A stretch of DNA of 64,000 nt from Bifiguratus adelaidae. Its lineage: Eukaryota > Mucoromycota > Endogonomycetes > Endogonales. The stretch is from positions 1 to 64,000 of the forward strand of contig MVBO01000020.1 in the NCBI GenBank assembly GCA_002261195.1. Reading direction: 5' to 3'. The first letter of the stretch is position 1. Each line of letters opens with the position of its first letter. Of the stretch, positions 7,383-38,836 are shown piece after piece. The notes under the pieces are model-generated. The model ran no database searches, had not been told where the DNA came from, and saw nothing but the letters and a program-made list of their open reading frames with translations. A program made the translations under genes and the position numbers.

Positions 7383-8822
7383 ATGGAGAAGTATTCGCGA
7401 TGGAGGGCAAGTTGGCTTAAGAAGGTCAATGGCATCAACTAAGTGCTTATAGGACGCTGGAACGGGTATACAACCCTTTCTACCACCCGTGGTAGGTTGA
7501 TGGAATGGAACACTGCACGCGCAATCTTCTGATGCTTCAATAGCCTCCTAAACAACCACTGGATGCTTTGGGTGCGCTGCGTCTAGCGGCAAGCTTTGCC
7601 ATATGTCCTATCATTGCCTTTGCTCGCCTGTTGATGCTGGCTTTATTGGCGCTATTGCATCTTGTGCTTGTAGACGCAGTATCTATGGTGCTGGTATGTT
7701 GGAGCTTCAAGGGAAATCCAATCGATGCGCTCTAACGGACAACGCTGTAGCCAGGAGCTGTAGCTAGGCTATGGAAGGGGTTGCTTGCAAGTTGCTTGTG
7801 TCGATTGGCCCTTTTCGTCTGCGGCTTTTACTATATTCCCACCGAAATGGTCTCACTTCGACGAGGGTAAGACAACTTACTGAACAGGTGCGTTGGCACA
7901 CGTCATTGATCGCTCTTCTTAGCCGGGGACACGCTACCAGGGCAGAGAAATGGGATGTCAAGAGTGGAGATGTCATTATTGCCAATTGGTCGAGTTACGT
8001 GGATGTACTCTATCTTCAACTCAGGTAAGATTGGGCCAAATGTCCGATCCTGTCCATGACACTGCCTGCAGGTTTGCTCCCGTCTTTACGCAGTGCTTTC
8101 AAAAGACCAACACTCTGCGCATGGTGAGCTTTTGGGAAGCCATCCGATTAACCGGAGCTGTTCCCGAGCTCGAACCACGGCCAGGCTACAAGACCTCTAG
8201 CATGTCTGAGCTCGTCCAACACGTCCAAAACAACGATTTGGGGCCCATTGTTGTCTTTCCAGAGGTATGCTGCACTTTAGCCATCCTTGCTCATGCTCAC
8301 CCGGTACCAAAGGGAACGACCTCGAATGGCAAGGCGTTGCTCAAGTTTTTACCCCTTTTCCAAGAATATCATTTACCTCTTCGACATTTGACTCTGCGCA
8401 TCTTGTCGCTAAGGTGAGCATGCCTCTCCAGGGACCATTCGTGGGCTCACACGCGCACACGCGACAGATACGATTACCATCATTTTTCACCCACCTTTTC
8501 TGCCGGCACAAAATGGACCCATATATTCCGACTCTGCAGCCAATTCCAGAATGCCTTGTCAGTACGATACCTTGCCTCCAGTGAATCGCCTTCATCGCCT
8601 TCCTTCACGCCGAATGCGCCTACGACTGCATCTAGCACCACCATCAACACCAAGGCAGATTTGCCAAAGCAAGACAGTGAAGGAGATGTGGTGGGTGCGC
8701 AAACCCTATTGCTCTTGGGTGCGCTTAGTCGATTAAGGAGAACGGGGATGGGTGTGATTGAAAAGAGGGCTTTTCTGGAATACTTTGCGCAAATGCAATC
8801 GGGATATGCCAAGAAAAAGTAG
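7383..8822 (+). CDS. LOA1: LOA1/Vps66-type lysophosphatidic acid acyltransferase
   Basis: This family acylates lysophosphatidic acid at the ER or lipid droplets and affects lipid droplet and vacuolar traffic. Exon 1 (7383-7406) encodes MEKYSRWR and joins at 7453 to DAGTGIQPFLPPV, matching the known N-terminus of Loa1 homologues. That join needs a GC-AG intron at 7407-7452. A hydrophobic segment follows (AICPIIAFARLLMLALLALL). The acyltransferase motifs are NWSSYVDVL (degenerate NHxxxxD block) and FPEGTTSNGKALLKF (Glu/Gly motif), then YDYHHFSPTFSAGTKW. The C-terminus is Ser/Thr-rich and ends in a lysine cluster. Six further GT-AG introns are inferred. It shares a very tight divergent start region with RGP1 and converges on an aminotransferase gene 58 bp away. 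Confidence 0.87.
7407..7452 (+). other. GC-AG intron in LOA1
   Basis: The exon ends ...TGGAGG and the intron opens GCAAGT and closes TTATAG (46 nt). Removing it joins MEKYSRWR to DAGTGIQPFLPPV in phase. The nearest GT (7421 onward) gives no family-like join. Confidence 0.8.
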
Positions 8823-8880
8823 AGGGGTGCTCGGTGACAAAGGCGTACAAAACGTTAGTCTATCGTTGCATCTATATCGT

Positions 8881-10277
8881 CTAGAGACATCGCTCAATAC
8901 AATTTTTGAGGCGTTGAACCCCTTCAACCAAATCTTTGGCGTTATAATAGGCAAAACAGAGCCGAACGAAATGGCCAGGTGGTGCGGTACCCGGTGTCCA
9001 AAACACGTCGCTCAGCATGAGCTTGACGCCCTGGCCACGATTAATGGAGACCAATAATTCGCGAGAGAGCATGGCCGTCGTGACATTAGGTGGTAACTGA
9101 ATCCAAACAAAGTAACCTCCGGTTGGTTTTTTGCCATTGGGATAGAGAGCGCAACCAAGCGGGACCAGATCGGTTTGAACAGCTGTCGCCAGTGCTTGCA
9201 ATCGTTCACTCAGTGACATGCGCAAGTGTAGTAAGTGTTTAGAGAGCGGCATTGCTTTACCGTCCCGCGGTATCAACAAATGATGAAGTACAAGAGACAC
9301 GAAATGGGCGGGTGAGCCCCCGGAAACATAGACGCCGCTAAAGCAATCTGTTATTGAGTCCATCCGATCCGACACCACAAGACCCACTCACCTCTTCTTG
9401 ACACGAGCAATGATGGAGCGCCTGGCTTCCATCCATCCGCATCGAACACCGGGACCGAGAATCTTACTAAACGTGCCATTGGAAATCACAACCGCTCGCT
9501 CGTCTCCTTCCTCGTCATAACTGGCGAGCCGCGGGGGTACGGTTGCGCTCGCATCATACCACAACATATCGTACACATCATCACACACAATGAGTATATC
9601 GTATTCGCGAGCGAGTTGAACGAGTTGCTGACGACGTGTATGCGAAAGCGTGGTGGTATCCGGATTCGCAAAGGTAGGGACGCAGTACAGGAGATAGGTA
9701 TTGCGATGAGGGTGATGCCCATTGGATGTTGGAATGGTTGCTTGTTGTTCTAGCCAGGTGCGGAGACCTTCGATATCCATACCCTCTTCGTCATCGGGTA
9801 CACCCACAAATTGATCCTCGCGATATCCAGCATCTCGAAGCGTCCTAAAGACATGATGATAGGTTGGGTTCTGGAAAAGCACATGGCGCGTGGTGCTGGG
9901 ATGACAAAAGATGGAAGCAATGTTGGCCAACGATTGAGAAGCGCCTGAGGTCAAGGCAATACAGGATCTGTATAATCATGCTGTCAGAATGGAAACGTGA
10001 TATAGCTTCCCTTTCGTCACTGCCTGTCCACTTGCCTGTCTACGGGCGTCCCATATTCAGCAGCCAGAAACGTAGCCAAGCGCTCTAGCATATCACCGTC
10101 ACCCAGTTCAGGCCCATACTGCAGACTACTGAACGCACTCGGATTCGACTCCGTCAGACATGATGCCGCCGCCTCGCGCATCAGCGACACGGGCAACAAG
10201 TCTGAAGAAGGAGCACCGATGCCCAAGTGGATAGTATTGGGAGGTATAAACTCGTCAAACAAGCTTTTGAGAGCCAT
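8881..10277 (-). CDS. PLP-dependent aminotransferase, fold type I (Yer152c-like)
   Basis: Predicted class I/II aminotransferase. Three exons (10277-10036, 9967-9392, 9337-8881) sum to 424 residues. Features in order are an N-terminal IHLGIGAPSSDLLP, the cofactor-binding LTSGASQSLANI, NPTYHHVF, the substrate-domain loop CVPTFANPDTTTLS, the Asp that pairs with the PLP ring nitrogen in IVCDDVYDML, and the Schiff-base lysine in SNGTFSKILGPGVRCGW. The last part (GGYFVWIQLP, HFVRLCFAYYN) is the usual C-terminal small domain. This arrangement is close to the S. cerevisiae Yer152c / 2-aminoadipate transaminase-like group. Substrate cannot be told from sequence. The first intron (9968-10035) is GC-AG. 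It lies tail to tail with LOA1. Confidence 0.88.
9968..10035 (-). other. GC-AG intron in the aminotransferase gene
   Basis: On the minus strand the exon ends GTAGACAG and the intron begins GCAAGT and ends ATACAG (68 nt). The spliced product reads TPVDRSCIALTSGASQ, the expected join before the PLP phosphate-binding region. Confidence 0.85.
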
Positions 10278-10696
10278 AGAGTATATGAGAGAGGGTGTGT
10301 GCTTGTGTGAGATGTGCGAAAAGAAGGGAAAGCGTTCCCTTTCGGCACCGAGGCCGATACTTCGGAGTGTGGCGAGAATCCGAGCGTATGGTGCGTGTAT
10401 CGCTGTCGGAACACGGTCATGCGAGGATCCACGGGCATATAAACCCACTACGAGTCTGACAGATGCATGTCCTATACACAAGATATGTCTTGCAGAACAC
10501 TGAGATCTCTATCCTTGGATGATACACCTTTTCGTCTTAATCCTGCACGCCCTTATTCTCCTCATCTATTCATCTTTCATTCGGTTCCTAAAGGGCAACA
10601 CGCTATAAACCCTCTACTTCTCTTCTCGTCTCCTCTCTCCTCTTCCTCTCCTCTTCACTGGATCCCAATCCCAATCTATCCTCACATCCTCTAAAA
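10278..10696 (+). promoter_or_regulatory. Shared upstream region of aminotransferase and SUS1 (TATAAA and CT-rich leader)
   Basis: This is a 419-bp divergent intergenic region. On the + strand a TATAAA lies at 10604-10609, about 90 bp before the SUS1 start. It is followed by a pyrimidine-rich (CT) leader at about 10618-10660, common in fungal core promoters. No gene is visible. Confidence 0.5.
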
Positions 10697-11170
10697 ATGT
10701 CCAAAGACGTGAAGCAACGCATCACACTCGAGTTTGTAGAGAGCGGCGAACGGGATAGGTGAGTGTGCTACGACCTTGGTATGGTGGTCTCTTCCTCATG
10801 CTAACGATGGCTCATGGCAGGCTCTTATCGTTGCTGCGTAAGCGATTAACAGAAAGTGGGTGGAAAGATGACCTTGACGCCTATTGCAAAGGTACAGCAC
10901 TCTTCTACCGGGCAGAGGCGTAGTAGACTGATGGTGCCGTGCCTCTTTTGTAGAGACCTTCAAGAATGTCGACCATACTCAACTGAAAATGAGCGATCTG
11001 GTCAACCAAACGACGCAATATGCCAAGGGTGAGTTGTGTGCAGACTGAAAAACGGCCTGGCGCTCAACAGCAGATGGACGGACGCTCCTTGTGTAGAAAC
11101 GGTACCTGAACACATACGGACAGAATTGCTGGCAGAGCTCAAGGCGTTTCTAGATACACAGTTGGATTAA
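10697..11170 (+). CDS. SUS1: SUS1/ENY2, SAGA and TREX-2 subunit
   Basis: Sus1 is a small helical protein shared by the SAGA deubiquitinase module and the TREX-2 mRNA export complex at nuclear pores. Four exons (10697-10758, 10821-10891, 10954-11028, 11097-11170) sum to 93 residues, the family length. The spliced protein contains FVESGERDRLLSLLRKRL, ESGWKDDLDAYCKE and PEHIRTELLAELKAFL, matching the helices of Sus1/ENY2. All three introns have GT-AG borders. Intron-containing SUS1 is well known in yeast, where splicing is regulated; whether that applies here is inference. It lies tail to tail with SGF73, which encodes a direct partner in the same module. Confidence 0.92.
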
Positions 11171-11294
11171 AGCTTGTTGGAGAGGAGGAATCCTGGGGCT
11201 AGAGAGACAAAGGATGTCTTTCTGCATAGTTACAGTTGATGTACAATAGACAAATAGTGAGGACAAGAGGAGAGATCATACAAACGACATATTT

Positions 11295-12730
11295 CTAGGA
11301 AATGCCGTAGTCTTGATGGCTTTCAGGCAAGATTTCTTTGGGTTTGAGTGCATCCAAGAGCATGTCATGGACGCGTAGGCAATGGGTACGACGATAGGTC
11401 ATGGGACGTGGTTTGATGGCGAGAGGTTGTGGACGGTTCAGGCGGATGGTTTCGAGAATGGTATTGACCTCTTCGTCGGAATCGACCGGTTGCTCAGGCA
11501 CCGGAGGTGGCTTTACGCCTGCGACGGCCTTGACATTGGGTTTGGTGGCAGCACCTGGGACTGCGGACAAGGCGCAATGAGTAATGGGCGCTCCATGGGA
11601 AAAACATTGCTGTAGACTTACGTTTGGCGCGCATTTGCTCTTTGCGTTCTTGCGCTTCCCTAAACAACTCGAGGAACGGCCTTGATCGACCTTGTACCTC
11701 GCGTTTGGCAGTCATCGAGTGGCTCTTGCAAGTCACTGAACGGGCGCAAGGTTGATTATTGGGTCCAATAACACCGCATTGCCTGTCAAGGTCCAGAGGA
11801 GGCTTTACTTTTGGTGTAGCTTTCTTGTTGTCTTTCTTTGGTTTCTTCTTGTCATCTTGTACCGTATTTGGCACTGAATCTGAAAAGTAAAAGGGTAGAA
11901 CACGGATGGTTAGTCATCGGCGCATCCACCTCTTGTCGGTCATCGCTTACCTCCGCCAACCGAAGTGACCGAATTCTTTCGTTTCTTCATGGCCGCTTTG
12001 CTCTTTGATGACTTTAACGCATCTACGGGAGAATTCATGGCATGCGATTCTTGACTGCTGTCTGGTTGTGTTGATTCTGGTTGAGGAATAGGTAATCCAC
12101 AGGTTTCTTGCCAGCGCTCGTCAGCAAACAAGGTGCCAGTCTCGTCTAAAACCACCAACCTAAATGATCTTTGAAGGCCTGCGCGAGTATGGGCTTTTGA
12201 CACTTTTGGCAACTATACACCACCGTTTCTTCTTCTAGTGGGATATGACCATAAATCTTGCGGTAACTGGGATCTAACTGCGCAACGATAGGAGACGTGG
12301 TCACAGAACTGTTCTCAGAGGATGCTATAGTCGTACGAGTGAGCTATACTAGGCCGTACGCACGTTTTGACCTACTTTCTTGGTTCAAATGGTCGTTCAG
12401 AAAGTTCCATGATTCGCGCGTAACAATCTGTTTAGGCGGCGGTCCAGAGACAGATGTAATCTGCTTCCAGTCCTTTGGGTTTGAAAAGAGCGATAAGCTG
12501 TGAGGTGTCAGGAGGGGCGAGAGTAGCTTTGGGTTATGTGGTGTGAGAATAGACTTTGCCAACTGTGAAACGTCTAAGCAATGGAGTCAGCTCGAGTGTT
12601 TTTGTTGGTCAATGTTGTGGTTGGTGATTGGCAGTTGAGCAATCACTGAGGTACACTCAAGTGCACGATCGCTTCGACCAAGCTGCTCCTTGTACCTACC
12701 TTTTCCAACATCAGCAGCCGCAACACTCAT
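11295..12730 (-). CDS. SGF73: SGF73/ataxin-7-like SAGA subunit (SCA7 domain)
   Basis: Sgf73 anchors the deubiquitinase module (Ubp8, Sgf11, Sus1) to SAGA. The start [10 protein letters not shown] at 12730 joins to [20 protein letters not shown] Cys-rich finger follows ([20 protein letters not shown]). After a Lys/Ser-rich spacer comes the diagnostic SCA7 zinc-binding domain: [35 protein letters not shown], then RSRPFLELF. The C-terminus is basic and Pro-rich with a [17 protein letters not shown] segment. About five short introns are inferred; one (near 12340) is only about 32 nt. Stop at 11295, 125 bp from the SUS1 stop. Family assignment is firm from the SCA7 domain. Confidence 0.9.
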
Positions 12731-12813
12731 TGCTAGACCGCATCGGAAGCTCGAGACCAAAGTGAAAGGAAAGCACAGCGAGGAAAGAGGGTTGGCTAAT
12801 TTAATTCATTATA

Positions 12814-15430
12814 CTACAAGGCATCAAAATTGATGATGTGCAAGGCCTGTTTTCGTTCCCTTTCGTCCTCTCGCTGCAAATGATATTAACCAGTAGAATG
12901 ACATGAGTTGGAATACGTACCTTTTCTAATAGATGTAAAATAAGGACCACAGCCGCCAATACAAATGCTGATGCTAAAAGAACGACGAGTACCCAAGGTA
13001 TATACTCTGCTGGCCTCACGTATAGTTCGGTACGCCATCTAAAAAGCATTAGTGAGCACCGGATATCGTTGAGCCTCCGTAAGAACTTACGTGGCAGTGT
13101 CAATGACATGCGGAGGTTGGTATGGGATGAATATGAGCTGCGAATTTGGAATGACTCCTTCGAGGAGATAGTAATGCTGGTCCTATAAGGCATCGTGAGT
13201 CTGTGGTTGTCATAAATGGTCTTGAATGGCTTACCTGATGCCGTGAAGTTCCTGCAAACAAGACTTCAATATAATTGTTAGTACGCCCAAGGCCGATAAG
13301 TGAATAAGGTGGAAGTAGGGGGAGATACGCGCTTTGAGGATATTGAGCAACTGCGGAAAAGGAGCGATCACTTAGTCCCTAGGCGTTCAAGCATGCGAAG
13401 ACAACTTACCAGCATGCACATGTGGATTGCCAGAGGTATCAAGGACGGTAAACTTGAAGGAAGCGCCGGGATAATTAACGCCATAAGGTTTTGGTGAAGG
13501 GTAACGAGGCCCAACACTACAAGGACCAGGACATACACCGTTGGATACTAGGCCTAGGTTCAGTATATCGCCTCGCACAAAGTTGGAGGACCCACCTAAG
13601 CCCTTGAGGAAAAAAGCATCGTTAAAATATCCATTATGGATAAACTGCGGTACTCTGGCTGCGTTGTTAGAATGGCCAGAGCGCAGCACGAGTATATCCG
13701 ACGTGCCCTAAGTGCAAAGTAAGCTTTATCGCACGCAATCTAGTTTTTTCGCCCTTACATCTTCACCCAAATCAAACCATGCCGCTTGACGCGCATCTTG
13801 TATGTTGGATAAGGCTCCCGCACCCAAAGTCACCTGTTGATAGGTCCTCCGCTTGGCTCTGACTGCTCCTGCTGAGCATCGCCCAGTAGTACAGGGTATG
13901 GATGCAAGAAGAGATGTAGATCCATCTGTCCCTACGACTAAAAGATCGGGATAACCATCAAGATTGTAGTCCCCTGTCAAAGTGGTTAGTTCAATATGCC
14001 AAGCACTCATCGTTATGTTACTTACCGACGCGTATCGGCACTGGTAGATGACCTTGGAAGTTATCATCGGACAACAGAAGACCTGATGACATGACGTTCC
14101 TCAAGTACAGTATCACATAGGCCTATTGCAATGTTAATTGAATGCGCCCGCATTCTCGACATTGTACTCACATCGCCTTGTGCAAAACTGAAGTCAGGAT
14201 CGCCTACACAGAGGTCCATTGATGCTCGACATGTGATGGGCTCTGAAGCATTCAATCTTGGCTGCTCTGTTTTTGAGCACAGCGGGACCTGCTGGTTGTA
14301 TAGCATATGTATCTGGCAACCACTTGACGTGCACACTGGGATAAGCATGTCCATGGTGCCATCGCCATCTAATGATTGCATTAGCACTAATGCTCGTATA
14401 ACCGTTCGCGCACTCACCAAGATCTGTGAATGTGACCGCTCCAGCACCTGGCGGAAGGGTCCCTTGCACTTGCTTGCGGAATCCCATCTGCTTTTGATTG
14501 ATCCACATTTGGTATGTTCCGTCTGCACATGTAAAAAACAAGTCTGTCTCATTGTTGGTCATTTCAATTCCATAAGCGGCTCAGAGACTCACCTGCCAAG
14601 CAATCGCCATCCAGATCCACAAAGGCGTTGGAATGCGGATCAGACCAGACACATGTCCCGACATCTTGCGGGTCAATGATGGAATCGGCTACAGTGCTGC
14701 CAACACATCAATATGCACATCTCCACAGCCCAAAGCGACTTACACATTGAACAAGTCGGTACTGTTTAGTAACGGATCTGCCTGATTCCACCATACAGAC
14801 AACTCGGTGCCTGATCCTTCGTAAGCATAGCCCAACAGGTCGGTCTTCATGTCGCCATTCAAATCAGCAATCATAGGCAGAGCAGTACGAGCAGAAGGTA
14901 AGTCAAGAGGTGTCGCGTCAATCGAATTGTTCCCATTGCCGGTATATAGCCGTAGAAAGATCTCGCTGTTTTGGCTGAAGCTCTTTTGTCCCATGACGAG
15001 TAGATCGAGTTTACCATCGTAATTGAAATCTCCTGGTACAATGTTGGTGATGAGAAAATCGGTTTGGGTGATTTGTGGGGGATTCGGAAGAGGGACAAAG
15101 ATGCCTAGAGCTAGTGCCAAGTCAATAGGTGTTCGTCCAACGCAATGGTGATGCTCGACTTGCCTGGCGCCCATGTATGTATAGTGATGCTATGTTGGTC
15201 ACCAGAGAGTTCTATAAGGTCCGTACTGAAGGGCCTGTCAGTAAACGCGAGCCGGAACGGCTGACCAACACCTACAACTTGTCCCCATTGAAGTCGCCAA
15301 AAGCTGCAATTGTTCCCTGTATACTGGTAATGTCGGGTTCATTGTACAGTTGGCTTTGAGGATACTTTGTGCGAATGTCAAAAGCGTGGACCATTGGCAG
15401 TAAAAATGCCAGACTCCTCCATAACCTCAT
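12814..15430 (-). CDS. ITFG1: ITFG1/TIP-like FG-GAP repeat membrane protein
   Basis: A secretory-pathway type I membrane protein related to the T-cell immunomodulatory protein. The start at 15430 gives a signal peptide (MRLWRSLAFLLPMVHAF). FG-GAP/integrin-like blades each carry a Ca-binding DxDxDG-like loop: GDFNYDGKLDLLVMG, DLNGDMKTDLLGYA, DGDGTMDMLIPVC, GDYNLDGYPDLLVVG. The conserved C-terminal segment reads YGVNYPGASFKFTVLD, then LEGVIPNSQLIFIPYQP, then one membrane helix (WVLVVLLASAFVLAAVVLIL) and a short basic tail ending at 12814. About ten introns are needed. Two joins near the N-terminus (about 15290-15240 and 15140-15100) do not resolve to canonical borders in the right frame, so that part is uncertain. 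Confidence 0.83.
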
Positions 15431-15871
15431 CCTAAGGTGACATTCAAGCAAGTGGAAGAATTAAAATGAATGGCTCATTGTTTTCTTCTTGACGGAAAAC
15501 CATGCGTTTGTATTCTTGTTGAATGGAGAGTAGAGTGCATGAGGATGAGCAACGATGTTGGTGCTAGGGAGACAGGCTTCGCTGTCTCTTTTGCTGTTCT
15601 TCATTCCCAGATTGTGTAGCATCAAACTGTTATGGCCATTTATCTTAGCTACAGCAGAGAAAGGTATTCTTGAAAACAGCCATTGTGGGTCCATTGCATG
15701 CATTCCGTATCTGCGCGTTTTCCAAGAAGGGTTGTGTGATGCGATATACACGTCTCGGCTGAAGCCAATGTGGAACCTTCGTGCTGCACAACCTTCGATT
15801 GTGCGACCATGGGTCTTGGCTATGCTCGGACGTTCATTCTTTTCTGTTCCGTTTTGTTTTAGGACGTACTT
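15431..15871. other. Divergent intergenic region, ITFG1-like / ER thioredoxin copy 1
   Basis: 441 bp with only out-of-frame short ORFs. It presumably holds both promoters; no clear TATA box or repeat stands out. Confidence 0.4.
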
Positions 15872-16455
15872 ATGGTCAAGCGGTGGTTGAGCTTTGCATG
15901 CATTGCCCTATGGTCTGTTTGCGTACGGGCAGTGGAAATCCAATCATTGGACAGTGATAGCTTTACACAACTTACCACGAACGGAACATGGTTTATCGAG
16001 CACTTTGCTCCATGGTGTCTTCACTGTCAACGGCTAGGAACGTTTTGCAAGTCTGCACTGTACGTTATCCTCCATTTACGCAAGAAACAGCACCTACATG
16101 GCAAGAGTTGGCCGATCATGTCCACCATCAAGGATACGACGATACGTTCAACTTTCATGTCGCTCAGATTGATTGTACGCAACACGGGCGTAAGTCTATA
16201 GCTACTTTGCGTACTTTCATAGAAGATTCATGCTGACTGGAAACAGAGCTCTGCGCGAGCCACGGTGTCAGAGCATACCCTACCATGACCCTTTACAGGG
16301 ATGGGAAGAACATTACAGAGTACACCTCACATCGATCCTTTGAAGCTCTCAAGGCGTTTGTGGAAGGACAACTTGAACCTGCTAGCATACCCGTCACCTC
16401 AGAGACGGAACAAGAGCGTCATACCGTTGGGATCGTCATTCAAAAGCCGCTGTAG
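15872..16455 (+). CDS. Short ER thioredoxin-domain protein, truncated tandem copy
   Basis: A diverged, shortened paralogue of the next gene. The start gives a signal peptide (MVKRWLSFACIALWSVCVRA), then EIQSLDSDSFTQL and one thioredoxin active-site CxxC in FAPWCLHCQRL. After an intron come PTWQELADHV and NFHVAQIDCTQ. After a second, canonical intron (donor at 16191) comes LCASHGVRAYPTMTLYRDGK. The frame stops at 16455, shortly after the first domain, while its neighbour continues for several further domains and a membrane anchor. By homology the first intron donor should sit at 16038, but the bases there are GA instead of GT. A cryptic GC donor at 16047 would keep the frame with three or four extra residues. 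It may be a functional single-domain soluble oxidoreductase or a decaying duplicate. Confidence 0.65.
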
Positions 16456-16860
16456 ATGCTGCGAGAGTGATCAGTGTGTATGGCTTTCAGAGAGATCACA
16501 TAGTATCCTCCTGTTGCATGGAAGCCGACTAATGCCTGCATCAAAGCTTTGGATGGCGTGATTGCCAGCGTTAGATCCGTTGTCGCCTCAAATAGTCTCT
16601 TTTCAATCCTTCATCCTATCCATGGTATGTCTTCTGTCCCCTCATCAATTTCCTTCGTGCTTTGCAACAGCGGGCTATTCCTCCCTCTCACCCATCGGTC
16701 ACTCTCTCTGGCCATGATCTATACCATCACCATCCATCCTTGTCCACTAGCTCTATTCAAGTCCTGCATCAAAGCAAGCCAATCCAGCCGCAGAAGAAAC
16801 ATTCATTTCGGAGTGTTTTTGTCTCGCACCTCACACTAGTGGCGATTGTCATTCCTATCC
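16456..16860. other. Intergenic between the tandem ER thioredoxin genes
   Basis: 405 bp. No sequence resembling the second thioredoxin-like domain of the downstream paralogue is readable here, so copy 1 is not simply split by a late stop. The distal half is pyrimidine-rich and probably carries the promoter of copy 2. Confidence 0.4.
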
Positions 16861-19607: not shown

Positions 19608-19661
19608 CCGCTGTCTTTGAGTTCTGAATTTGTGTAGAATAGACCTGTATAGACTGGACTG

Positions 19662-21838
19662 ATGGCACTGCCAGAAGGCAAGTAACGCATAGAACCATCC
19701 CGGAGGCTTTGCCTTGCTGCTTTCACTGAAGCGCTTCACATTAGACGGCAGCAAGACGACGCGACACGTCGTCCTTGCCTTCTGGACAGTGGTGCTCTTT
19801 GCGGTACCATTTTGGTGGAAGACCACTGAGATACACCGGGCGAGCCTACCGTTTAACGACATTAGCTCCTGGGCACATGGCGATGTAAGTGCTGAGTAAT
19901 GCAAGTGCTTAGGCAAGAGTTGGACTTGATGTCGTCGTTTCTTAGTTTTGTCCGCTCGTTTTTCCCTTTCACTTTTCATTACATGTCGATGCGGATAACT
20001 TGCCTGAGCTAGCGAGGCCAGTACAACGAGAAGCGCTGGTCAATGATGTGGAGACTTTGGTGAAGCGTAGTTGGCAAGAGGCCACTGCCAACAGTTGTGT
20101 AAAGTACTCTGTAAAACTGGATGCAGGCAAGTTGGAGGATGGCTGCGAAAACGATGACTCAACAGATCATGTCTTGTGCAGATGCAACCAACAAAGTCGC
20201 AAAGCGGACGGAGATGAGTCACTATCACATCTACCTACGTGGATCACACTCAGATCAGAAAAATCCTACCGCTATGGTTTCGGCAGATCGCATCTTGGAG
20301 ATACGATTGATGCAAGAGGCCAAAGGTAAAGCCTTCTATATGTTTTCAAGCGACTAAGTTCCACCAATAGCACCAGAGACAATTGCAAATCTCTTGATAG
20401 GGATTTTAGACAAGCAAATGAGGCACCTTGGAGCGATCATAGATCGACATGCAAATGAAAACGTCGTAAGTGTTGTGTTACCCTTGACAGCGAATTGAGC
20501 TGATTCTGGCGTCTCTTCACCTAGTCTACGGAGAGCATGCGGGTCATGAAGTATTCGTCCGACTATCAATTGACATTTAGCCTCATGAATGCAGATCCAT
20601 CTGCAGTCAAGATTGGGTGGGACATTTATACTGCGGTCGAGGGTGAGGATAACAGAGCTCTTGGCGTTACGCTGATCAGGCATTGACTATTGGTCCGTCA
20701 GATTATCTTTCGCCGTTCCTCAGCGAATTGGCTATTCTATCAAACTTTACGGTGGATTCACAGGTCAGACTCCGCCCATAGTCTACGTGTCCCTGCTGCC
20801 TGCTCAAGCGATTTTAGGTTCAACACTATGCGGAGCTGACCTTCAAGCCGAAATTTCGCCTGCGAGAGAAGCTACCGTCCTATCATTACCTTGAACCTGA
20901 TACCCTACCACATTTCATCAACGCAGCCGAATGGAATTTAGGCAAGTGGCCACATACCATCGACAAAAGCCCGGCTTGTACTAATGCGCAATCTTAACAG
21001 CCAGCGCTGTTTCAACCAAACCTACCCTCAACTTTTTGCTTTATGTCCCTTCTGCCGAGCATATTCCTTTACGAATCCACAATAGCAAAGGTCAGTAACC
21101 ATTTTGACCGAACCACGGTCATGTATTGTACATTTGCTCACGCGGTTTCCTATCAGGCGAACCTGTCAATAGCAACGCATTCTTGCTACCCAGATGGGGA
21201 GGCATCGCCATCAGTAATCCCAACAAGACCGCTCTCGAAAATGGCCAACATTTTTATGATAGAGATGCGCTTCGGCCAATCATGGAGATTTACCTGCGTC
21301 AATTGCGGCTCTTGATGGGCATCGCTGATCAGGAAACGGTGCAGATGGTGAGTAAAGAATAAGAAAGCGCGTAATCGCGGGTATTGACAATGTTCAGATC
21401 GACGGTGTCACTGTCACCTACGAGTCAGCTCCCGTTACTGGCATTACCATGATGGAGAAAGATGCCTTGGTAAAGAAGCGCATGTTGGAGAATATTGCAT
21501 CGGCCATCTCTACACTCGATTCGCTCATGCGTCTCCTCAAGGAGATTCCAAACATGGTGGTCCTCGACCACATCCAAATCGATGTCACATCAGCCCTTCA
21601 ATCACTGGCGAATGCCATGGCAGCCCTCCATCGAGCGGATTACGTTGAGGCCTTACATCATTCCATTCAAGCACTCAAGAAGGCGGAGACAGCCTTCTTT
21701 GATCCCACCATGGTCTCTATGCTCTATTTCCCCGATGAGCACAAATACGCCATTTACATGCCTCTGTTCGTTCCCATCTCTGTTCCGCTTTTTTCGGCAG
21801 CGCTCAAAGAGATCAAGAACAGGCGAAAAGCTCCATAA
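19662..21838 (+). CDS. GPI17: PIG-S/GPI17, GPI transamidase subunit
   Basis: PIG-S is a core subunit of the ER GPI transamidase that attaches GPI anchors to proteins. A 16-nt first exon (MALPE) joins to FALLLSLKRF, then the N-terminal membrane helix and the hallmark FWWKTTEIHRASLPFNDI. Later exons give LSELAILSNFTVDSQ, FLLYVPSAEHIPLRI and FLLPRWGGIAISNP, all in the family's conserved order. A helical stretch (LVKKRMLENIASAISTLDSL) precedes the C-terminal membrane segment YAIYMPLFVPISVPLFSAAL and a short basic tail. About ten introns are needed. Three are GC-AG (19678-19705, 20127-20181, 20942-21000). The first is only 28 nt but is the only reading that joins the sole upstream ATG to the conserved frame. 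Its substrates plausibly include the GPI-anchored protein at 28.9 kb. Confidence 0.9.
19678..19705 (+). other. Very short (28 nt) GC-AG intron in PIG-S
   Basis: The exon ends CCAGAAG, the intron opens GCAAGTAACG and closes CCGGAG. The unspliced frame stops at once (TAA in the intron). Splicing is needed to connect the only upstream ATG (19662) with the conserved PIG-S frame. Confidence 0.6.
20127..20181 (+). other. GC-AG intron in PIG-S
   Basis: The exon ends GGATGCAG, the intron opens GCAAGT and closes TTGTGCAG (55 nt). It switches from the frame reading SVKLDA to the one reading ATNKVAKRTEMSHYHIYLRG. Confidence 0.75.
20942..21000 (+). other. GC-AG intron in PIG-S with TACTAAT branch site
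   Basis: The exon ends AATTTAG, the intron opens GCAAGT, contains TACTAAT about 14 nt before its TTAACAG end (59 nt). It joins AAEWNLA to SAVSTKPTLNFLLYV. The near-perfect branch point makes this the strongest of the GC-AG introns. Confidence 0.88.
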
Positions 21839-28800: not shown

Positions 28801-28842
28801 AAGGAGGTTGAAATTTGGAACACTTGTGGTCACACCCTGTCT

Positions 28843-29882: not shown

Positions 29883-29992
29883 ACAAACCTCACCGGACGC
29901 TCATATAAACAGATACCGTAATGATTGTATGGTATGTGTCATGTACAAGTATTTACATGTATCTTCAATATTCTGTATGCTCCAAAACATAC

Positions 29993-31494
29993 TTATTGAC
30001 CTGAAGGAACATTCAAGGGCGAATAGAGCGCTGCTGGCGCTGGGAATGCCGGTGAGCCATCCGGATTCCAGCCAAAGATTTCTGTTCGAGCTAATTGCAC
30101 CCACCATTGAATTTCCGTGTACGCTATCAGAATTACTCTCTCTTACCTGTACGATTTCCCCAGCCTCCATTAGGATCTTGCATGGCATGGTACACTAACA
30201 GATATGAGCGATTGTGTTCCGCGATATCCAAATACGTACCAATCCAAGGCTGCGAGCCGTCTTCGGACACGGTGAAACTAGCATGCCCAGTGCCGTAAAC
30301 GCTGTTGGCCGAATTCTTTTGAAACACACAGCGATCCAACGTCCACCAATTGGAGACGGTCATTGGATCAGCTCCACCGTCAATACCCATCATGCCTAGG
30401 CAATAATCGGGTGTCCAAGATCCGGAGGCCGAGTAGATGAGGAAACAGCGCCCATTGTGGAACAGAATCTCAGGGCCCTCATTGATCGGTGCACCGATTG
30501 TTTCCCATGCGCCTGTGAGAAGAGTGAGATGATCTATGGCACGTTAGCGCTCTTAGAGTCTTACTGGAAGGATGGTGCAAGAGTGCTCGGGATCCAGAAA
30601 TGGTCGTTGGATTCGACATCGGTGCCTGTGGACACGAGTCAGCGGCCAGGAACGCCAAGAGTCATACATACAATATACAAGTTTTGCGTCGTTTGATCGC
30701 TGGGATCCGTCCAGCCCGACCAGATAAAGTACAAGTCTACGAAGCTTCTGTGGGAACACTGTCGTTAGCGGCGACCACTTACTTCCATTCGTGTATTGCA
30801 GAACGGTACCGTCAATGGCCCATTGATCATTGGTGGGATCGGCAATCTAGAAGCATGAGACGCCGTCGATTCAACATTGATGCTTTACCTTTCCAACCAG
30901 CGTGTAACTGCCCATGGGATCGGTGCCTCCTTGAAGAACATACATGCGATGACTTGCGTTATCGCCATTTTGATCCATGGCAAAGTAAATGTACCAAATA
31001 CCATTGATGCAATGGATTTCGGGTGCCCATACGTCGGCGTAACCAGCCGGCGCAGTAAAAACCTGCACAAGTTGAGCTACTGTAGCTTGAGGTGAAAAAT
31101 CCACTCACGGTTGTTTGCTGAGCGTTTCGCCAATCGGTGAGAATGTTGTTTTGGAAAACGGTGATACGGTCTCCTTGGGTGTAGGTCATGTAATAACTCG
31201 ATCCTTGCCTGCGGGAAAATGATAAATTATGTGATGCAGGCAAGTCGAACGCATTGCTTATTACCGAATCACCCATGGATCAGCAACGCTACCATCCTAG
31301 TCGGCCTCATTAGTACGATGATCATATCTTAACCCTTCAATCAGGCTCACCAAAATAGGGTTTTCATAAGTTGCGTGTTTCTGGCGTCGACGAGAGTAGA
31401 GCACTTCAACGCCATTGTTCTTGCCTAACGGAGCCGCAAATAGCAACGAAAGGCTGGTTAGCACGAGGAAAGTGGACGCAAAAAACACCTTCAT
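29993..31494 (-). CDS. Secreted GH43 glycosidase (arabinanase/arabinofuranosidase-like)
   Basis: Glycoside hydrolase family 43 enzymes cut arabinan, xylan side chains or galactan. The start at 31494 gives a signal peptide (MKVFFASTFLVLTSLSLLFA); an ATG five codons upstream is possible. The five-bladed propeller features are the general base Asp in DGSVADPWVIR, the blade YADVWAPEIHCINGIWYIYF, the pKa-modulating Asp in NDQWAIDGTVL, and the general acid Glu in GAPINEGPEILFHNGRCFLI. Also present are the calcium/His region YGTGHASF and SYLLVYHAMQDPNGGWGNRT, then ARTEIFGWNPDGSPAF. Eight exons with GT-AG introns. All three catalytic residues appear intact. Exact substrate cannot be told. It is the only obvious plant-polymer enzyme in the window. 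Confidence 0.85.
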
Positions 31495-31991
31495 TGTTTC
31501 CCCTCCCAATGACGCTCCGCAGTACTATTTAATACCTTAAACAGCGGCATTGTTCCGCCCTCTTGTTACGTTCCCCACGTACAAAACAGATATCCATGAT
31601 CAGTATGATCAAAGTCGAGGACCCCTTGTAAGATTTTGTCCAGATGTGGTAAAGACTGTCAAGATTCGCCCGGAGGGGAAGCCCGGAATGAGAATTTCGG
31701 TAAGCCAGGTGATGAACGGAATAGAACGCCGCGAAGAGATCCGATCAGGACCCTGAGCATCTCGGTATATCATCGATGGAAGCTACTTTCAGAAGACTGG
31801 CGATGGGATGATAGAGTACCGCAGACGGACCCTGAGTTTCCGGTGGGTTCGTTTGACAGGCGAACATTCATCATCTATCACAAGATATTTACAAACATAC
31901 GTACGGACGGTAGCGTCTCTGCCTAATTACATTGCGCGGAGAGTGCCCAAGGGCATCCTTGGGCCGAGCTTCAATATGAGAGAACGGATAC
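31495..31991. other. Upstream region of GH43
   Basis: 497 bp. No coding similarity is visible. An AT-rich TATTTAAT-type sequence at about 31526-31533 lies close to the GH43 start and might be a weak core element. Confidence 0.3.
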
Positions 31992-32192
31992 TTAGCGAGA
32001 CGGTGATCCACCAGGCTTCTTGCCGAACAGGGATGCCTTGGATGACGAAGAGCGGCTTGACGCGCTGCTTTGTGATGCTGCGCATGAGGCAGCATCGGCG
32101 GCCATTGATGCCTTTTTGCTGCCTTGAGCGGGTGCGTAGTAGATTTGGCCTGGTATTTGCTTCGCGATTTGAATCGCTTGAATATGAACCAT
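31992..32192 (-). CDS. Small Ser/Ala-rich hypothetical protein (66 residues)
   Basis: A single uninterrupted frame encodes MVHIQAIQIAKQIPGQIYYA, then a low-complexity Ser/Ala/Lys segment with two cysteines or fewer, ending KKPGGSPSR. There is no signal peptide or membrane helix. In its favour is a TATATA at 32315-32320 about 120 bp upstream on the correct side, and the non-random composition change between N- and C-terminal halves. Against it are the short length and lack of a recognisable family. It sits at the edge of a gene-poor region next to GH43. Confidence 0.35.
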   Translation of the reverse strand: MVHIQAIQIAKQIPGQIYYAPAQGSKKASMAADAASCAASQSSASSRSSSSKASLFGKKPGGSPSR

Positions 32193-33361
32193 GATGAAAG
32201 ATTATTTGTTAGGATTTGAAAACCGTTGTTGGGTGAATCGAGATAGAGACTAATGCGGCTGGCTGGCCTTGCGATGAGCTTGTTGATTGATAGGCTCCGT
32301 GGCTGGTCACCAATATATACAGGTGAGGGTGCCGCAGCCAAGGAAGTGCCGCAGCAAACACCAAGAAACGCCAAGGGGTGCTAAGACTACATTTGATTGG
32401 CTAATCCAATTTCGAGAGCGACTGACACCAAGCCCTAACGTCACGCGCTTGTCTAAAAAAGACATCCTGCGGTCTAAAGAGCATATTTATGTGTATGGAT
32501 CCACTCACAGTTCGGTTACCAGGTGAGGCGCCGCCCATTGTTCATTATCCGGCAAATTTCGAAATTCCCAGTCAAAGTCAGGGCTGGATGACTCAGTTTG
32601 CGCCAGCAATGCTGATATCAAACATAGCCGAAGGGGTTGATCGGACACGCGACGCCAAAGCCGACCCTAGGCGTGTCTGCCTCTTGGCTGCACTTTGTAC
32701 GGCAACTCGGCGTACTCTTGGCCAATCTCCTCATTGCCTATTTAAGTAACTTTTGCTATGAAGCATTTTCAATCCCCGTCTCCCAAGCAGCGAATATGCC
32801 TCCTCACTTTTCGTTCGCGTACACAAAAGAACGTGATCGACTTCATTCGCACCGATGACACGACCCGCCAAGAATACAACAGACGAAAGTCTGGCCCGAA
32901 GCTGAATGCTTCAGGCACCTTTCACATCTTCCGGCACACCAATTGTGGAATGCTGATCGTCGGCTATATCCTATCCAGACGATACTAGGCGCAAGCCTTG
33001 GGACTATATTAACCCTATAGCTCCTCCCTTTACATCGATCCGAAACATATCTGGCAGTTGATTAGCACACTGGTGGACAAAGCGACAGGACTGAATTGAC
33101 CGTAGAGGAAGCTAAGATTGTGTACATACGGTCATTTCTGACAGACCTCATCGGATACGTTCCACGCTGTCGGAGCAGCAGCCAGCGTCTTGAGACACCG
33201 CAAATGGCAGGCCACAAAGTAATCGCGGTCAAAGGCTGAAAAGTTGCACGAAATTTTGAGTTTGTCTCTGCGCATTCCCTGCGTCTTAGTTATAAGAGTA
33301 ACTGTCTACAAAGCATCATAGCGAAGTTATCTCTTTGCTTATCACTGCAACTCATACTTTG
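32193..33361. other. Gene-poor stretch without recognisable genes
   Basis: Only short, unrelated ORFs are present. A TATATA at 32315 probably serves the small minus-strand ORF. A short direct repeat GTGCCGCAGC occurs twice near 32329 and 32347. No terminal repeat, transposase or reverse-transcriptase motif was found. Confidence 0.4.
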
Positions 33362-33820
33362 ATGCCTACTGTAGCAAGGCGACTGCTTACATTGCGGACT
33401 TTGCCAACCGAGATCTTAGAAATGATCGCGCTTGAAGTTGCCAGTCTCGGGTAGGAAACTTACAAATCATTCCACATTGGCATCAGCGTTTTCGTTGATT
33501 TGCTAGAGTCGGACCGCCTACGGTGGCTGACTTTCGACAGACTCCATGTGATGCCGCTGCAGCACGAAATCAACTCGCGTTCTAGAGCCATTCCGTTACG
33601 GCTGCCTCTTCTACCCGAGCGAAGAGTTTTTCTGGGCCATGACCTGGAGAAGCATGACTTAATTATCCGGTACTTTTCCGCTTACATCCGCCACCAAGTT
33701 GCACCTGGAAAAGGCTTGTATCTGGACGCGATGACTTATCTTATCTCGGCAATCGTGTTGGGAGTGAATTTTGCGCAGTGCTGCTTTGCCTTTGGACAAG
33801 CTCAACTATCAAAAAAATAA
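33362..33820 (+). pseudogene. Possible F-box-like gene remnant
   Basis: The first frame from ATG at 33362 reads LPTEILEMIALEVASL, typical of the first helix of an F-box. A GT-AG intron (about 33452-33506) can then lead into either of two frames. One gives VADFRQTPCDAAAARNQLAF, which resembles the rest of an F-box but stops immediately. The other gives a 106-codon frame with no family resemblance. The conflict between frames suggests a decayed F-box gene or an incorrect exon join. Low confidence. Confidence 0.3.
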
Positions 33821-35054
33821 ATGATGCGACTTGCAATTACATATGATCGCCTTATCGAGCATGTCCTTGATAAGGAGGAGAGACTCTTGTTGGGAATTGA
33901 TATAGAATTGAACGTCATAAAGCCACAATTGGGACGTTACGAAACAAATTCAACAGCCGTGCAAGCGAGTCGCTGTATGCCTTGAGGTTGCATTGTCCCC
34001 ACAACAGCAGTGCACACCCTCACGAAGCCGTCTACTCTCGAAAAAATGTTGTATGAACGCCATACCTCGGTCGTCCTTGAAGCAAATTGACCTGTGTATG
34101 TCAACAATCGCTTGCCTTTCTTAGACATGCATGGGCATATGCGAAAGCTTTCAATTATGTTTGGATTGTTTTGCAGGGTGAAGGCTTTCTCCGTATAGCA
34201 CTTCTCTATGAGGAATATGATTTCTACCGTGGCAGAGGGTATTTAAAATATAAATTAGAAGGAGCGGTCTGTCCACACAGCGTCAGTTGCCAGTCTCCAG
34301 TTGTCCGATAGGGTGACGGGTCTGAGCTCTGACGAATGGCTCGGATTGATCGAAACCCAGAGCATAAGACATCGACTACAGAAAGACAATCGCATACGCC
34401 ACCATGCATACAGCCTCAGCATTTCTTCTGGTACCGATTTCCGCCACGAGATCGAGGACATTCATCATAGTTAAGCTCCTACCGAGTATTATGATATAAA
34501 CGCAGCATCTATCAGTGGCGACACCAAACATCAATCCAAGGGTGTGGCGCAAACGCCGCAATCCTGGTCCAATAGAAACGCGTTCCAACATCGATCCCAT
34601 TGTTTCGAGAGGAAGGGGTCATTTCCCCTAACCCTACATAACTCCCTCAACGGCAATTCGGAGGTCAATTTCAACGGGCCTTCCGTTTTCCCCAGCCGAA
34701 GGGTTTTTTTGCGCTGTAAGGCACAATTGCTGGTAGAACATAATTCAATGAGCGAGAGGCGAAGAAAGTGTGGCCAACCTAGGGGTTAGAGCACGAGGAT
34801 CAATACCCATGAGCGCATTACCAGCCTCCTATCTCTGTACACACCGTAAACTCAACCCTCCGATGAGGAACAATTAATTCATTTTGCTTTCCAAAGAAGG
34901 AAACCGTTTGATAGTGGGGAGGCCCCTCCTCGCCGCCGTCTAACCGGCTTCCGCGATATATAGGTCGTGGGTTGCTTGACGCACCTCCCACTTTCTTGTC
35001 CATGTCATTATAATCATTGAATCTTCACTTTCTTCATCGTCTGCTATATCTGCA
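33821..35054. other. Gene-poor stretch; TATA box for the next gene
   Basis: No supported coding region. TATATAG at 34957-34963 lies about 92 bp before the ATG at 35055 and is a plausible core promoter. The rest shows only short random ORFs. Confidence 0.4.
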
Positions 35055-35720
35055 ATGGCAGCCTATTCAACCACCACGGTGAGGAATCCTCGCTGTCCTC
35101 ACTTGAAGCGTAAAGTTCGACTACAAACACCACAGTCTATTGCACAAAAGGCATACTCGCTCACTTGCTCCAAGGTTGCGCAGGATGTTGCCTTGCCTCA
35201 TCGACCGGTGTATCACATGCGCGAACGCCTCCTTCTATGCTCCATACTGGACAAGGCGGAACGAATGATCAAGGATTGCCAGCAGGGAGTTGACGCTGAA
35301 GAAGATGCTCGACGAAGGGGCTACGGTGTCTGCACACCTATGCCGAGCGTGCTCAAATACGGATCCGCACCCGACAACACCTCACTGCCCACGTCAGACT
35401 CTTCCTCTACTCGGGACATTTCCGGAACGTCCAACAGTGGCACAAAACGGCAATCTGATAAGTCTCCTTCCCCTTTATCACATCAAATCTCCCTTCCTGT
35501 CTTATCGAGACCTCCCTCTCGATCACCATCACCTCCACTTTCACCATCTAGCATCGCTTCCCCATCCTCACCCTCACCCTCAATATCTCATCTCTCTTCG
35601 CTAGCTTTGCGATTAGACTTGGGTACGGACAAGGCCAACGAGAACTGGCAACATCAACAACCATCTCATCAATCCTCACATCATTTGCGCACAATACCGC
35701 GAAGCATTCTAGCCAATTAA
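35055..35720 (+). CDS. Hypothetical Ser/Pro-rich protein (221 residues)
   Basis: An uninterrupted 221-codon frame with a TATA box 92 bp upstream. The N-terminal half is basic with regular hydrophobic residues (VYHMRERLLLCSILDKAERM) and could form helices. The C-terminal half is a low-complexity Ser/Pro tract (SRPPSRSPSPPLSPSS) rich in potential SP phosphorylation sites. No signal peptide, membrane segment or known domain is visible. Codons of the first 100 residues look like its neighbours, so it is probably a real, fast-evolving fungal protein. Possible roles in regulation or stress are not supported by any motif. Confidence 0.55.
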   Translation: MAAYSTTTVRNPRCPHLKRKVRLQTPQSIAQKAYSLTCSKVAQDVALPHRPVYHMRERLLLCSILDKAERMIKDCQQGVDAEEDARRRGYGVCTPMPSVLKYGSAPDNTSLPTSDSSSTRDISGTSNSGTKRQSDKSPSPLSHQISLPVLSRPPSRSPSPPLSPSSIASPSSPSPSISHLSSLALRLDLGTDKANENWQHQQPSHQSSHHLRTIPRSILAN

Positions 35721-35833
35721 GGGCTGCAATTTCCTTGATGTAATTAGTCGTGTACCACTATCATTGGATTCCTGATCCATGTGTATATACCACTCCCGCG
35801 ATAGAATACATACATTTGCAGCAATAATCTCTT

Positions 35834-37184
35834 CTATTGTGCCGTGTCAAAGGGGAACAAGGTTCCTCCGAACACAAAATGCTGCACAACGGGTAACTTG
35901 CCCAACACTTCTGCTAACCACATCTTGACCATCCCGCCATTGATTTTGTACCATGTCGGTATGGCGGAAATGTCATAGAGCAAGGGTGAATGTTCGGGAA
36001 AAGGACCACGTTTCGTCTGCAGTATACCTGTGCGTGAGATATATGAACCTTTCGTGCGAGCTTACCTCGTAAATGGAAGCAATGGCACCAAAATAAAGGT
36101 AATGGTCCTTGAGTCTCATAACCGTATCCTTGTGCATGACGAGGTCAGGCTTGATCCGGCCCGTCTCTTGTTTGTCAGGAACGGGAGAAGCGTCTAGGGC
36201 ATCCAGAGTACGGTCATCTTGATCAAAGAGTTGAGCAGAGCCCCATAGGTACGGCAAAAAACAATAGTCGTCTAGACCCCAGACACCATGCGAGCCAGCC
36301 GGTTCAAGAGTATACGTTCGTTGTAGACGTCGGGTAATTTCAAAATATCGCGCAAAGATGCGAAGGACACCAGCGGTCCGATCACCGTGATCTACACGGT
36401 CCGACAGATGACTCGGTGCCTGCAGGAACCCAATCATTTCCAGGCCAAACAGCCAGGCAGCAAACGACAATTCATGTCCGGAACCGTAATCGATCCGTAC
36501 CGGATGCCCAAAGCCATTGATCAGGTAGGGTGATAGTTCCGCAATAAGGTCGGGTTGAGCGTACCTGGGTGACAAGAGATGTTGATGTAATTCATGCGAA
36601 CCCTTTAAATCATAATCAACTCTCTGCTACACCTGCTGCATTTGCGCCTCACTTACTTGTGCTAGCCTTGCACTCCATGTACGGAACGCCTTGTTTCCGA
36701 AACGTTGCGGATTATCTTCGGGCGGTATCTCATCAATCCACGTATCCAGCACATCCAACAGCTGGATCACCTTTTGCACATGCTATACAGCATCCATGAA
36801 CGTTTGGCATCCACGTTGACGTATCGGCCTTACCTCGCTTGTCGGTATATCTTGGGTGAGGCGCACGTTCTTGACCGTTTCGTTCCATCCTCGTACGCCG
36901 TCAAGTAACCGTTTCCAGGCAATAGACTTTCTAAACTGCTGCATGTCGGCTTCATTGTGTATCTTTCGAACCGGAGGACTGAAGGTTGTGGATGAGGTCT
37001 CAATGTGAGGTAGCAGGTCGAGAGGAGGGAGTACAGTACGACTTGAAGGTGCAGTGGGAGGTGGAGGACGGAATGTGGTGTTGGGCATGGCGGTGCGAGG
37101 CGGCAGCACCGTCCCGGTGCTTTCGGCCATATGCGCCAATGATCCCGGTCTCGTGGTAGGTACCGGCAAGTCCTTACGTTGCAT
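35834..37184 (-). CDS. PP2A phosphatase activator (PTPA/RRD family)
   Basis: Peptidyl-prolyl isomerase that activates protein phosphatase 2A catalytic subunits. The N-terminal 90 residues are Pro-rich ([19 protein letters not shown]). The PTPA fold starts at [20 protein letters not shown]. Later exons carry [15 protein letters not shown], the signature [39 protein letters not shown] and [19 protein letters not shown]. The end reads [20 protein letters not shown], typical of the family. Three introns are inferred. It is close to yeast Rrd1/Rrd2; the sequence alone does not decide which. The stop at 35834 faces the Ser/Pro-rich gene. Confidence 0.92.
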
Positions 37185-37219
37185 GACAGTGAATAGTATT
37201 TGTTTTTGACCTCTGGATT

Positions 37220-38836
37220 TTACATGACCAGCAATTCTGGATGATTGACATAGTATTCTATCTTCTCCAACAACCTTGGCGCTAATTCACCCTTGCCCGC
37301 TTTCTCATTCACAGCCAACTTGAGAGACACTGTCGAGCGCGGTGAGGAGCCGGCGCGGAGACTTGATTCAACTTGCGCTTTGATGGGGTTGCGAGGAATG
37401 GCTGTGACCGACGGGGTAGATGACAGGAAATCTATAATGTCGATGTTGTTTGATGCTTTGTGGAAAGCTGATGACCTTGGAGAGGATACGCTACTGATAG
37501 AAAGCAGAACTGGCGAGGATGGTGTGCCAGTGGAGAAGCCTGCATTCGAGACACTGAAGGATCCTCCGCGGTATTCCTCAGAGTCTATCGCCGTGTCTGA
37601 TTTTGCAAGTAAGATGGCCACTTGCATGACACCGTTGACCAGGCTTGGGGTAGTGGCTCGAGGCTTGCTACTCACACTGCCAACGAGATAGTCAAAGATC
37701 TCGTCAGATGTTTGAACTGTCTTCAATAAGGGAACATCCTTGAGAGCGAGATCCGTCGCTCTAATAAAGAAGTCGTTGATGGATAGACGCGTACCGAATT
37801 TATCTGCCATCGCTCGTCAGTCCCATGCTTGCACTCAAGTGATTGCCGAAGCACCTACCATTCAAGACCTTGCACAATTTCCGAATCTCATCAATGGAGA
37901 TGACGCGCTCAACCTCGGTCTTTGTGGGTTTTACAGCCTCCTTAACAGTTGCCTTCTTATCAGCAGCTGATGCCACCTTTCTGATCTCGATATTCTTAGG
38001 TCGAGGATCTGTGTTGGGTTTCGGAGCCGGCTTCTTCTTGATGATGCCGAGGTATCCGAGAACATCACCTTTCAAGATACGTCCTCCGGGGCCGGATGCC
38101 TCAATTTGAGACGGATCTTTGATGTGATGGGAGAGAATAAGGTTCATCACAGCCGGTGACAGAGGCTTGGCCAATTTCGATGTGTCAATCTCTAAGTGCG
38201 ACATGGCAGGACCGGCAGTAGATGCGCGACTCTCGGATTGCGCCTTCGTCTGTTCCTTTGCCTTGCCCTCTACATTTTCTAGCACAGACGCATGTGAGTA
38301 CAGCTGTCACGTTGAATCAGAAAAGTCGTGAAATACCTTCAGGGTTGGATTGCGATGGTTTTGCGCCAGCTTCGTCCTTGGGAATCTCAATGTTGGAAAT
38401 ATCATCACCTTCCTCGGCTAGCAAAGCAATCAAGTCATTGACAGCTGCGCGTCTTCCATCCCCGACCTGCCAACACCAGCATAAGTATATCCGGCAAGAC
38501 TGTTCTGAATACAAACCAAAATCTTGGCCAGGACACCATCATCTTGTGCTTCCACATCGATCTGAGCCTTGTCGGTCTCAATTTCGAGCAACACATCTCC
38601 GGCAGCCACAGTATCACCTAAGTCGCATCGTTAGACCCGATTCCAGCTCGCTCCTCGGAACACTTGCCTTCCTTCTTGTTCCACTTGATGATCGTGCCCT
38701 CCGTCATCGTAGGACTCATGGCGGGCATATTGAACTTTGTCATAGCCGCCCGAACGGCCGACGTATGAAATCCGGCTATTGACGTAAGCCTTGGTCACCA
38801 ATGTATCCCACACTTACCTCTCCGAAGAGCAAACAT
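37220..38836 (-). CDS. PDX1: PDX1, E3-binding protein of pyruvate dehydrogenase
   Basis: Non-catalytic subunit that binds dihydrolipoamide dehydrogenase to the E2 core in the mitochondrial matrix. The start MFALRR joins to [10 protein letters not shown] (import presequence), then a lipoyl domain: [20 protein letters not shown], then [20 protein letters not shown] with the lipoyl-lysine in ETDKAQ. An E3-binding domain follows ([37 protein letters not shown]). The C-terminal acyltransferase-like domain is degenerate and lacks the catalytic HxxxDG motif, which separates PDX1 from the E2 enzyme. One intron (38618-38667) is GC-AG. It is divergent from PRP38 with 57 bp between start codons. Confidence 0.88.
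38618..38667 (-). other. GC-AG intron in PDX1
   Basis: On the minus strand the exon ends GGAAG and the intron begins GCAAGT and ends GACTTAG (50 nt). It joins IIKWNKKEG to [18 protein letters not shown], the continuous lipoyl-domain sequence. Confidence 0.87.

Follow-up and report, generated by a model that had tools for sequence, protein, structure and literature searches.

GC-AG introns with near-complete donor sites in the fungus Bifiguratus adelaidae

Introns that begin with GC and end with AG (GC-AG introns) are more frequent in the fungus Bifiguratus adelaidae (Mucoromycota, Endogonales) than the fungal mean. They are described here from a stretch of 64,000 nucleotides (positions 1 to 64,000 of contig MVBO01000020.1; hereafter the window) and from further sequence of the same assembly, which comprises 18,628,366 bases in 286 contigs. 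They are very probably ordinary U2-type introns in which C at the second intron position (+2) is tolerated only when the rest of the donor is a near-complete match to AG/GCAAGT (the stroke marks the exon-intron border); they account for 2-3% of introns. The class is of a known kind, and its frequency in B. adelaidae is moderately raised. Two points deserve record: the share of C at +2 in perfect donors and an annotation error at one of these introns.

GC-AG introns in the window

An earlier note on the window listed six introns that open with GCAAGT, each preceded by G. All six donors can be read directly at the positions it gave, and five of the six intron ends stand; in PIG-S intron 1 the acceptor is moved from 19705 to 19744. 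A seventh intron, in a TIP/ITFG1-like gene and absent from that note, is added here (Table 1). All seven begin with GC and end with AG; two (the intron at 15105 and PIG-S intron 1) offer a choice among AG acceptors.

Table 1. GC-AG introns of the window and the PIG-S coding region
Feature	Position	Strand	Borders or structure	Basis
LOA1 intron 1	7407..7452	+	GG/GCAAGT...TATAG, 46 nt	homolog alignment
Aminotransferase intron	9968..10035	-	CAG/GCAAGT...ACAG, 68 nt	structure-chain alignment
TIP/ITFG1-like intron	15105..15163	-	CAG/GCAAGT...CTAG, 59 nt	gene finder, homologs; acceptor may be 15111 (53 nt)
PIG-S intron 1	19678..19744	+	AAG/GCAAGT...CATTAG, 67 nt	frame, score, homolog N-terminal length; donor likely
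PIG-S intron	20127..20181	+	CAG/GCAAGT...GCAG, 55 nt	gene finder, frame
PIG-S intron	20942..21000	+	TAG/GCAAGT...ACAG, 59 nt	homolog alignment
PDX1 intron	38618..38667	-	AAG/GCAAGT...TTAG, 50 nt	alignment, score margin
PIG-S coding region	19662..21838	+	ten introns, three GC-AG in preferred model	Pfam PF10510

The joins had also been described as consistent with the protein families. This is seen directly in four introns, those of LOA1, the aminotransferase and PDX1 and PIG-S 20942-21000; PIG-S 20127-20181 falls where the homologs differ from one another. The LOA1 join puts D directly after MEKYSRWR, and the same is found, with no insertion, in 12/12 other homologs aligned (13 of 120 listed homologs were aligned, one of them the deposited B. 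adelaidae protein). The aminotransferase join is gap-free against structure chain 8tn2_A and has a one-residue gap against 1x0m_A and 3aov_A. The PDX1 join aligns gap-free with 8ohs_C, and the gene model with this donor beats the best model without it by a margin of 10.6. In PIG-S, the join at 20942-21000 restores L293-A294-S295, three residues that do not vary across the 14 aligned sequences (the query plus 13 of 120 listed homologs).

The TIP/ITFG1-like gene falls into two when the gene finder disallows GC donors. With the acceptor at 15105 (score 5.84) the join lacks two residues relative to the homologs; the acceptor at 15111 (score 4.52) is also in frame. A search of PDB with the TIP protein gave no match at 0.001.

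The PIG-S model was assembled and then corrected by hand at one base; its protein carries Pfam PF10510 over residues 17-531 of 533 (480 bits). The claim of three GC introns in this gene depends on accepting intron 1; the other two are called by the gene finder. As first given (19678-19705, 28 nt), intron 1 has a trained-model score of -9.1. As 19678-19744 it keeps the frame, scores +2.8 and gives a better match to the N-terminal length of PIG-S homologs; the gene finder calls it only under equal priors. A GT alternative, 19682-19751, is also in frame, at a score of -3.2. From frame, score and length, a GC donor is likely here. The intron at 20127-20181 was called in three of the four main gene-finder settings and also in later runs. 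It scores 4.39, against 0.88 for a GT alternative (20131-20181, 51 nt) that leaves another frame; at 55 nt, the GC intron is compatible with the frame downstream.

Frequency of GC-AG introns

Introns were counted with a gene finder trained on the sequence itself (about 344 kb of the same genome), which allowed GT, GC, GA and GG donors and included a branch-site term in its acceptor score. The 343,578 bases analysed consist of the window, 100 kb each of contigs C1 and C79, 39,578 bases of C40 and 40 kb of C10; 8,377 bases in C1:1-100000 and 2,219 in C10:1-40000 are N, and some genes there are not callable. Four settings gave 588-611 GT, 16-19 GC, 2-3 GA and 0-1 GG introns. The setting used for counting gave 608 GT and 18 GC introns, and 16 of these 18 have G at -1, a purine (R) at +3, A at +4 and G at +5. 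Five calls were removed before the count: two GC calls whose donor context was poor, at window 41467-41510 (GCATCA) and C1:50899-50946 (GCAGGT), two with GA and one with GG.

In the window, GC donors are found in 7/120 introns (5.8%; six from the gene finder, with PIG-S intron 1 supplied by hand). Because its GC donors were the reason for choosing the window, the 280 kb outside it give the fair figure. There, 10/505 introns are GC at a prior of 0.01 (2.0%, confidence interval (CI) 0.95-3.6%). At a looser prior of 0.03 the figure is 13/508 (2.6%, CI 1.4-4.3%), the denominator combining 495 GT calls outside the window in the count setting with 13 GC calls at the looser prior. For all sequence, the window included and PIG-S intron 1 added by hand, the figures range from 17/625 (2.7%, CI 1.6-4.3%) to 20/628 (3.2%). 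Window and rest differ at p = 0.029 (stricter) or p = 0.081 (looser).

The mean given for 130 fungal genomes is 1.009% of introns (PMC7072748), and the looser outside-window count exceeds it at p = 0.002. The GC-AG share of B. adelaidae is thus raised about 2-2.5-fold over the fungal mean, and the window is a high draw. The earlier note had spoken of several times the usual ~1% and had looked for a genome fraction of at least 3%. Outside the window "several times" is unsupported and the point estimates of the fraction, 2.0-2.6%, fall just under that level; in all sequence analysed it is 2.7-3.2%. The same note suggested that the species may have spread or tolerated GC donors. Tolerance, at about twice the fungal mean, agrees with the counts; spread is not needed, because the introns are of ordinary length (median 52.5 nt for the 16 strict GC introns and 53 nt for the 608 GT introns), lie in unrelated genes and have a near-perfect remaining donor.

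The two removed GC calls lie in recognisable genes. An intron is required in the FAD-monooxygenase-like gene at 41467-41510, where the called donor is poor and its margin small (2.3). In the importin-alpha-like gene at C1:50899-50946, no frame-fitting acceptor was found by eye for a GT 4 nt beyond the called donor. A first run on 264 kb had given 488 GT, 16 GC, 3 GA and 1 GG introns; its weak GC calls at C1:28191, C79:16378 and C79:63506 were gone in later runs.

Donor context

Donor context was measured at six positions (-2, -1, +3, +4, +5 and +6) against the consensus. Of the 18 unfiltered GC calls, 12 agree with it throughout, four at five positions and two at three or fewer; the 608 GT introns include 24 with full agreement and 190 with five matches. 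Five or six matches are thus found in 16/18 GC and 214/608 GT introns. The GC share is 12/36 in perfect context, 4/194 with one mismatch and 2/396 with more mismatches, where both GC cases are doubtful. The "strict" AG/GCAAGT of the earlier note is therefore nearly right; LOA1, with GG/GCAAGT, departs from it. The donors read GCAAGT, GCGAGT or GCAAGC.

Because the gene finder itself rewards context, controls were run in which seven other dinucleotides received the same prior as GC. At a prior of 0.003, five or six matches were found in 16/16 GC and 0/5 control calls; the corresponding figures were 16/16 and 1/7 at 0.01, and 19/19 and 2/13 at 0.03. With equal priors and context on, they were found in 24/48 GC, 1/16 GA and 1/6 GG calls. 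When context was switched off, they were found in 9/66 GC, 0/51 GA and 0/60 GG calls under equal priors, and in 4/9 GC, 0/5 GG and 0/4 GA calls under low priors. In the equal-prior run without context, matches among the GC calls thus exceed what chance would give.

Raw word counts point in the same direction. AGGCAAGT occurs 27 times against a dinucleotide expectation of 10.4 and AGGTAAGT 29 times against 5.4, while the counts are 14 against 10.3 for AGGAAAGT and 3 against 8.3 for AGGGAAGT. C at +2 as a sequencing error or strain variant of GT, for which the use of one assembly leaves room, is hardly credible: the same rare context recurs at about 20 sites spread over five contigs, a preference that errors would not show, and the excess of the word AGGCAAGT has no counterpart in AGGGAAGT. 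Least probable of all the alternatives are U12-type introns, whose donor motif is RTATCCTT; GCAAGT, GCGAGT and GCAAGC are U2-type donors from which that motif is absent, the U11, U12 and atac RNAs not having been searched for.

Outside the window, family alignment covers part of the GC calls, namely those in AP beta, RPAC1, thioredoxin, SETD6-like and THI20-like proteins. The joins are gap-free in AP beta (GCGAGT), RPAC1, thioredoxin and the SETD6-like protein (two joins). Mitochondrial carrier and DUF2461 proteins with GC joins keep their Pfam domains; the protein at C79:53917 reaches 25.5 bits with its family, short of the cut-off of 33.9.

Several results weigh against ordinary, context-dependent GC donors at about twice the fungal mean. 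The stricter outside-window count exceeds 1.009% at p = 0.035. At a prior of 0.1, five or six matches were found in 21/25 GC calls and also in 5/30 control calls. Without context, GC calls barely outnumber the controls (66 against 51 and 60, the pattern that false calls would give; at low priors 9 against 5 and 4); since these numbers lie so near the controls, the GC calls lean on context except where a family confirms them. At the THI20-like join (C1:17738-17790) the alignment shows a gap of four residues.

Nearby GT sites and annotation errors

GC donors break gene models, and gene-finding software misreads such introns. The deposited LOA1 protein of B. adelaidae (P0121, BZG36_02425) is a concrete case of an annotation error caused by a GC intron. 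It is identical to the LOA1 protein predicted here (98% in the homolog listing) except for six residues, ASWLKK, inserted after MEKYSRWR and absent from the 12 other homologs aligned. These residues are the product of a GT 18 nt downstream (donor 7425), which leaves a 28-nt intron; the gene model built with GC disallowed agrees with this. Judged by comparison of the sequences, the public protein is wrong at this intron and owes its six extra residues to the misread border.

The deposited LOA1 protein can also be taken the other way, as a sign that splicing really uses GT sites close by and that the GC joins have been misread: ASWLKK fits donor 7425, and PIG-S intron 1 has its in-frame GT alternative. 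This is highly improbable. In LOA1 the GT reading requires the 28-nt intron and residues found in none of the 12 other homologs; removal of each GC donor costs 3.3-10.9 score units in the 16 strict cases; and family alignments run gap-free across GC joins. The GC borders are presumably those spliced in the cell.

Unlike LOA1, neither PIG-S (19662-21838) nor TIP (12814-15394) has a near-identical B. adelaidae protein among 120 listed homologs (of 949 and 768, respectively); the searches had length bounds, and deposited models outside these bounds could not appear. It may be that GC introns have disrupted the deposited models of both genes.

Splicing machinery and a possible basis of tolerance

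The one match found to U1 snRNA is a gene of 162 nt at C79:35278-35439 (L001 1501-1662). Its 5' end is canonical, beginning ATACTTACCTG, and it folds better than 200/200 shuffled sequences (z = -4.97). A U6 snRNA gene, its ACAGAGA box canonical, lies on the reverse strand of its locus (L030, ~1520-1640); at 121 nt the match is longer than the family consensus, whose model has 105 positions. No variant U1 5' end or U6 ACAGAGA box was seen among the best candidates scored, with one match each over the cut-off, and further diverged copies are possible. LUC7 matches lie at one locus and zf-U1 matches at two places, located without comparison of their sequences; the zf-U1 family was also over its cut-off in an E. 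coli control.

Altered machinery is not needed for GC donors, because U1 and U6 are canonical. That the species has altered its splicing machinery and actively spread or preferred GC donors is very unlikely, even though the outside-window rate of about 2-2.5 times the fungal mean and the frequency of C in perfect donors (33-41%, below) would both suit it. Against it stand the canonical U1 5' end and U6 box, and the fact that, where context is poor, GC donors do not outnumber the calls with GA or GG; LUC7 and zf-U1 were located, and a change in proteins is possible.

Pairing strength would explain the context dependence of ordinary U2-type GC donors. C at +2 costs one pair with U1, and total pairing can compensate, as GC donors keep nearly all the others; the matching positions may later pair with U5 and U6 too. 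Near-perfect donors of this fungus often have C at +2, which brings GC introns to about 2-3% of all.

In perfect AG/GNAAGT donors, C stands at +2 in 33-41% of cases: 12/36, 15/39, 16/40 (PIG-S intron 1 included by hand), 5/14 in the context-blind run (9 GT and 5 GC donors under equal priors) and ~41% by word excess. The limits on this share are 19-57% over the three larger counts, taken in one genome alone. This share lies fairly close to the G+C content of the sample, 48.5%. T and C at +2 may be nearly interchangeable in perfect donors, in which case GC donors would be near-neutral variants rather than a specially maintained class, their number set by that of perfect donors in the genome; this is a tentative suggestion, to which we give somewhat less than even weight. 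The C share at +2 in perfect donors is a number that can be compared across genomes as a gauge of plain pairing strength in donor recognition.

Perfect AG/GTAAGT donors are scarcer than independent positions predict: 15 against 29 expected in the context-blind run (p = 0.001). The count setting gives 24 against 64.5, a difference inflated by the gene finder; the context-blind figure is safer. A negative link between -1 and +5 among GT donors appeared in the count setting (odds ratio 0.23) and was rejected, because it reverses in the context-blind run (2.21) and the omission of doubly weak donors can create such a link.

Comparison with known systems

A literature search on GC-AG introns in Mucoromycota found nothing. 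In euascomycetes, the boundaries of GC-AG introns were wrong in automated annotation (Rep et al. 2006, as quoted in PMC8703528). B. adelaidae resembles them in that fungal GC-AG introns are misannotated, and differs in belonging to the Endogonales, with about 2-2.6% outside the window. The introns counted in 130 fungal genomes (PMC7072748) are of the same class, with a mean share about half that of B. adelaidae.

GC-rich algae have GC-AG shares of 39.6%, 22.2% and 7.7% together with very high genomic G+C (PMC3033335). A share above average is common to both; in B. adelaidae it is only 2-3%, at 48.5% G+C.

A 2025 review distinguishes two donor classes, AG//GUNNN and NN//GURAG; it argues for U5 as the pairing partner of the exonic AG half and for U6 as that of the GURAG half, and gives a human GC consensus with G at -1 and +5 (PMC11732430). 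The opposition between -1 and +5 in that model is not robust in B. adelaidae. The likeness lies in the GC donors, which carry both halves, and in the scarcity of perfect AG/GTAAGT donors.

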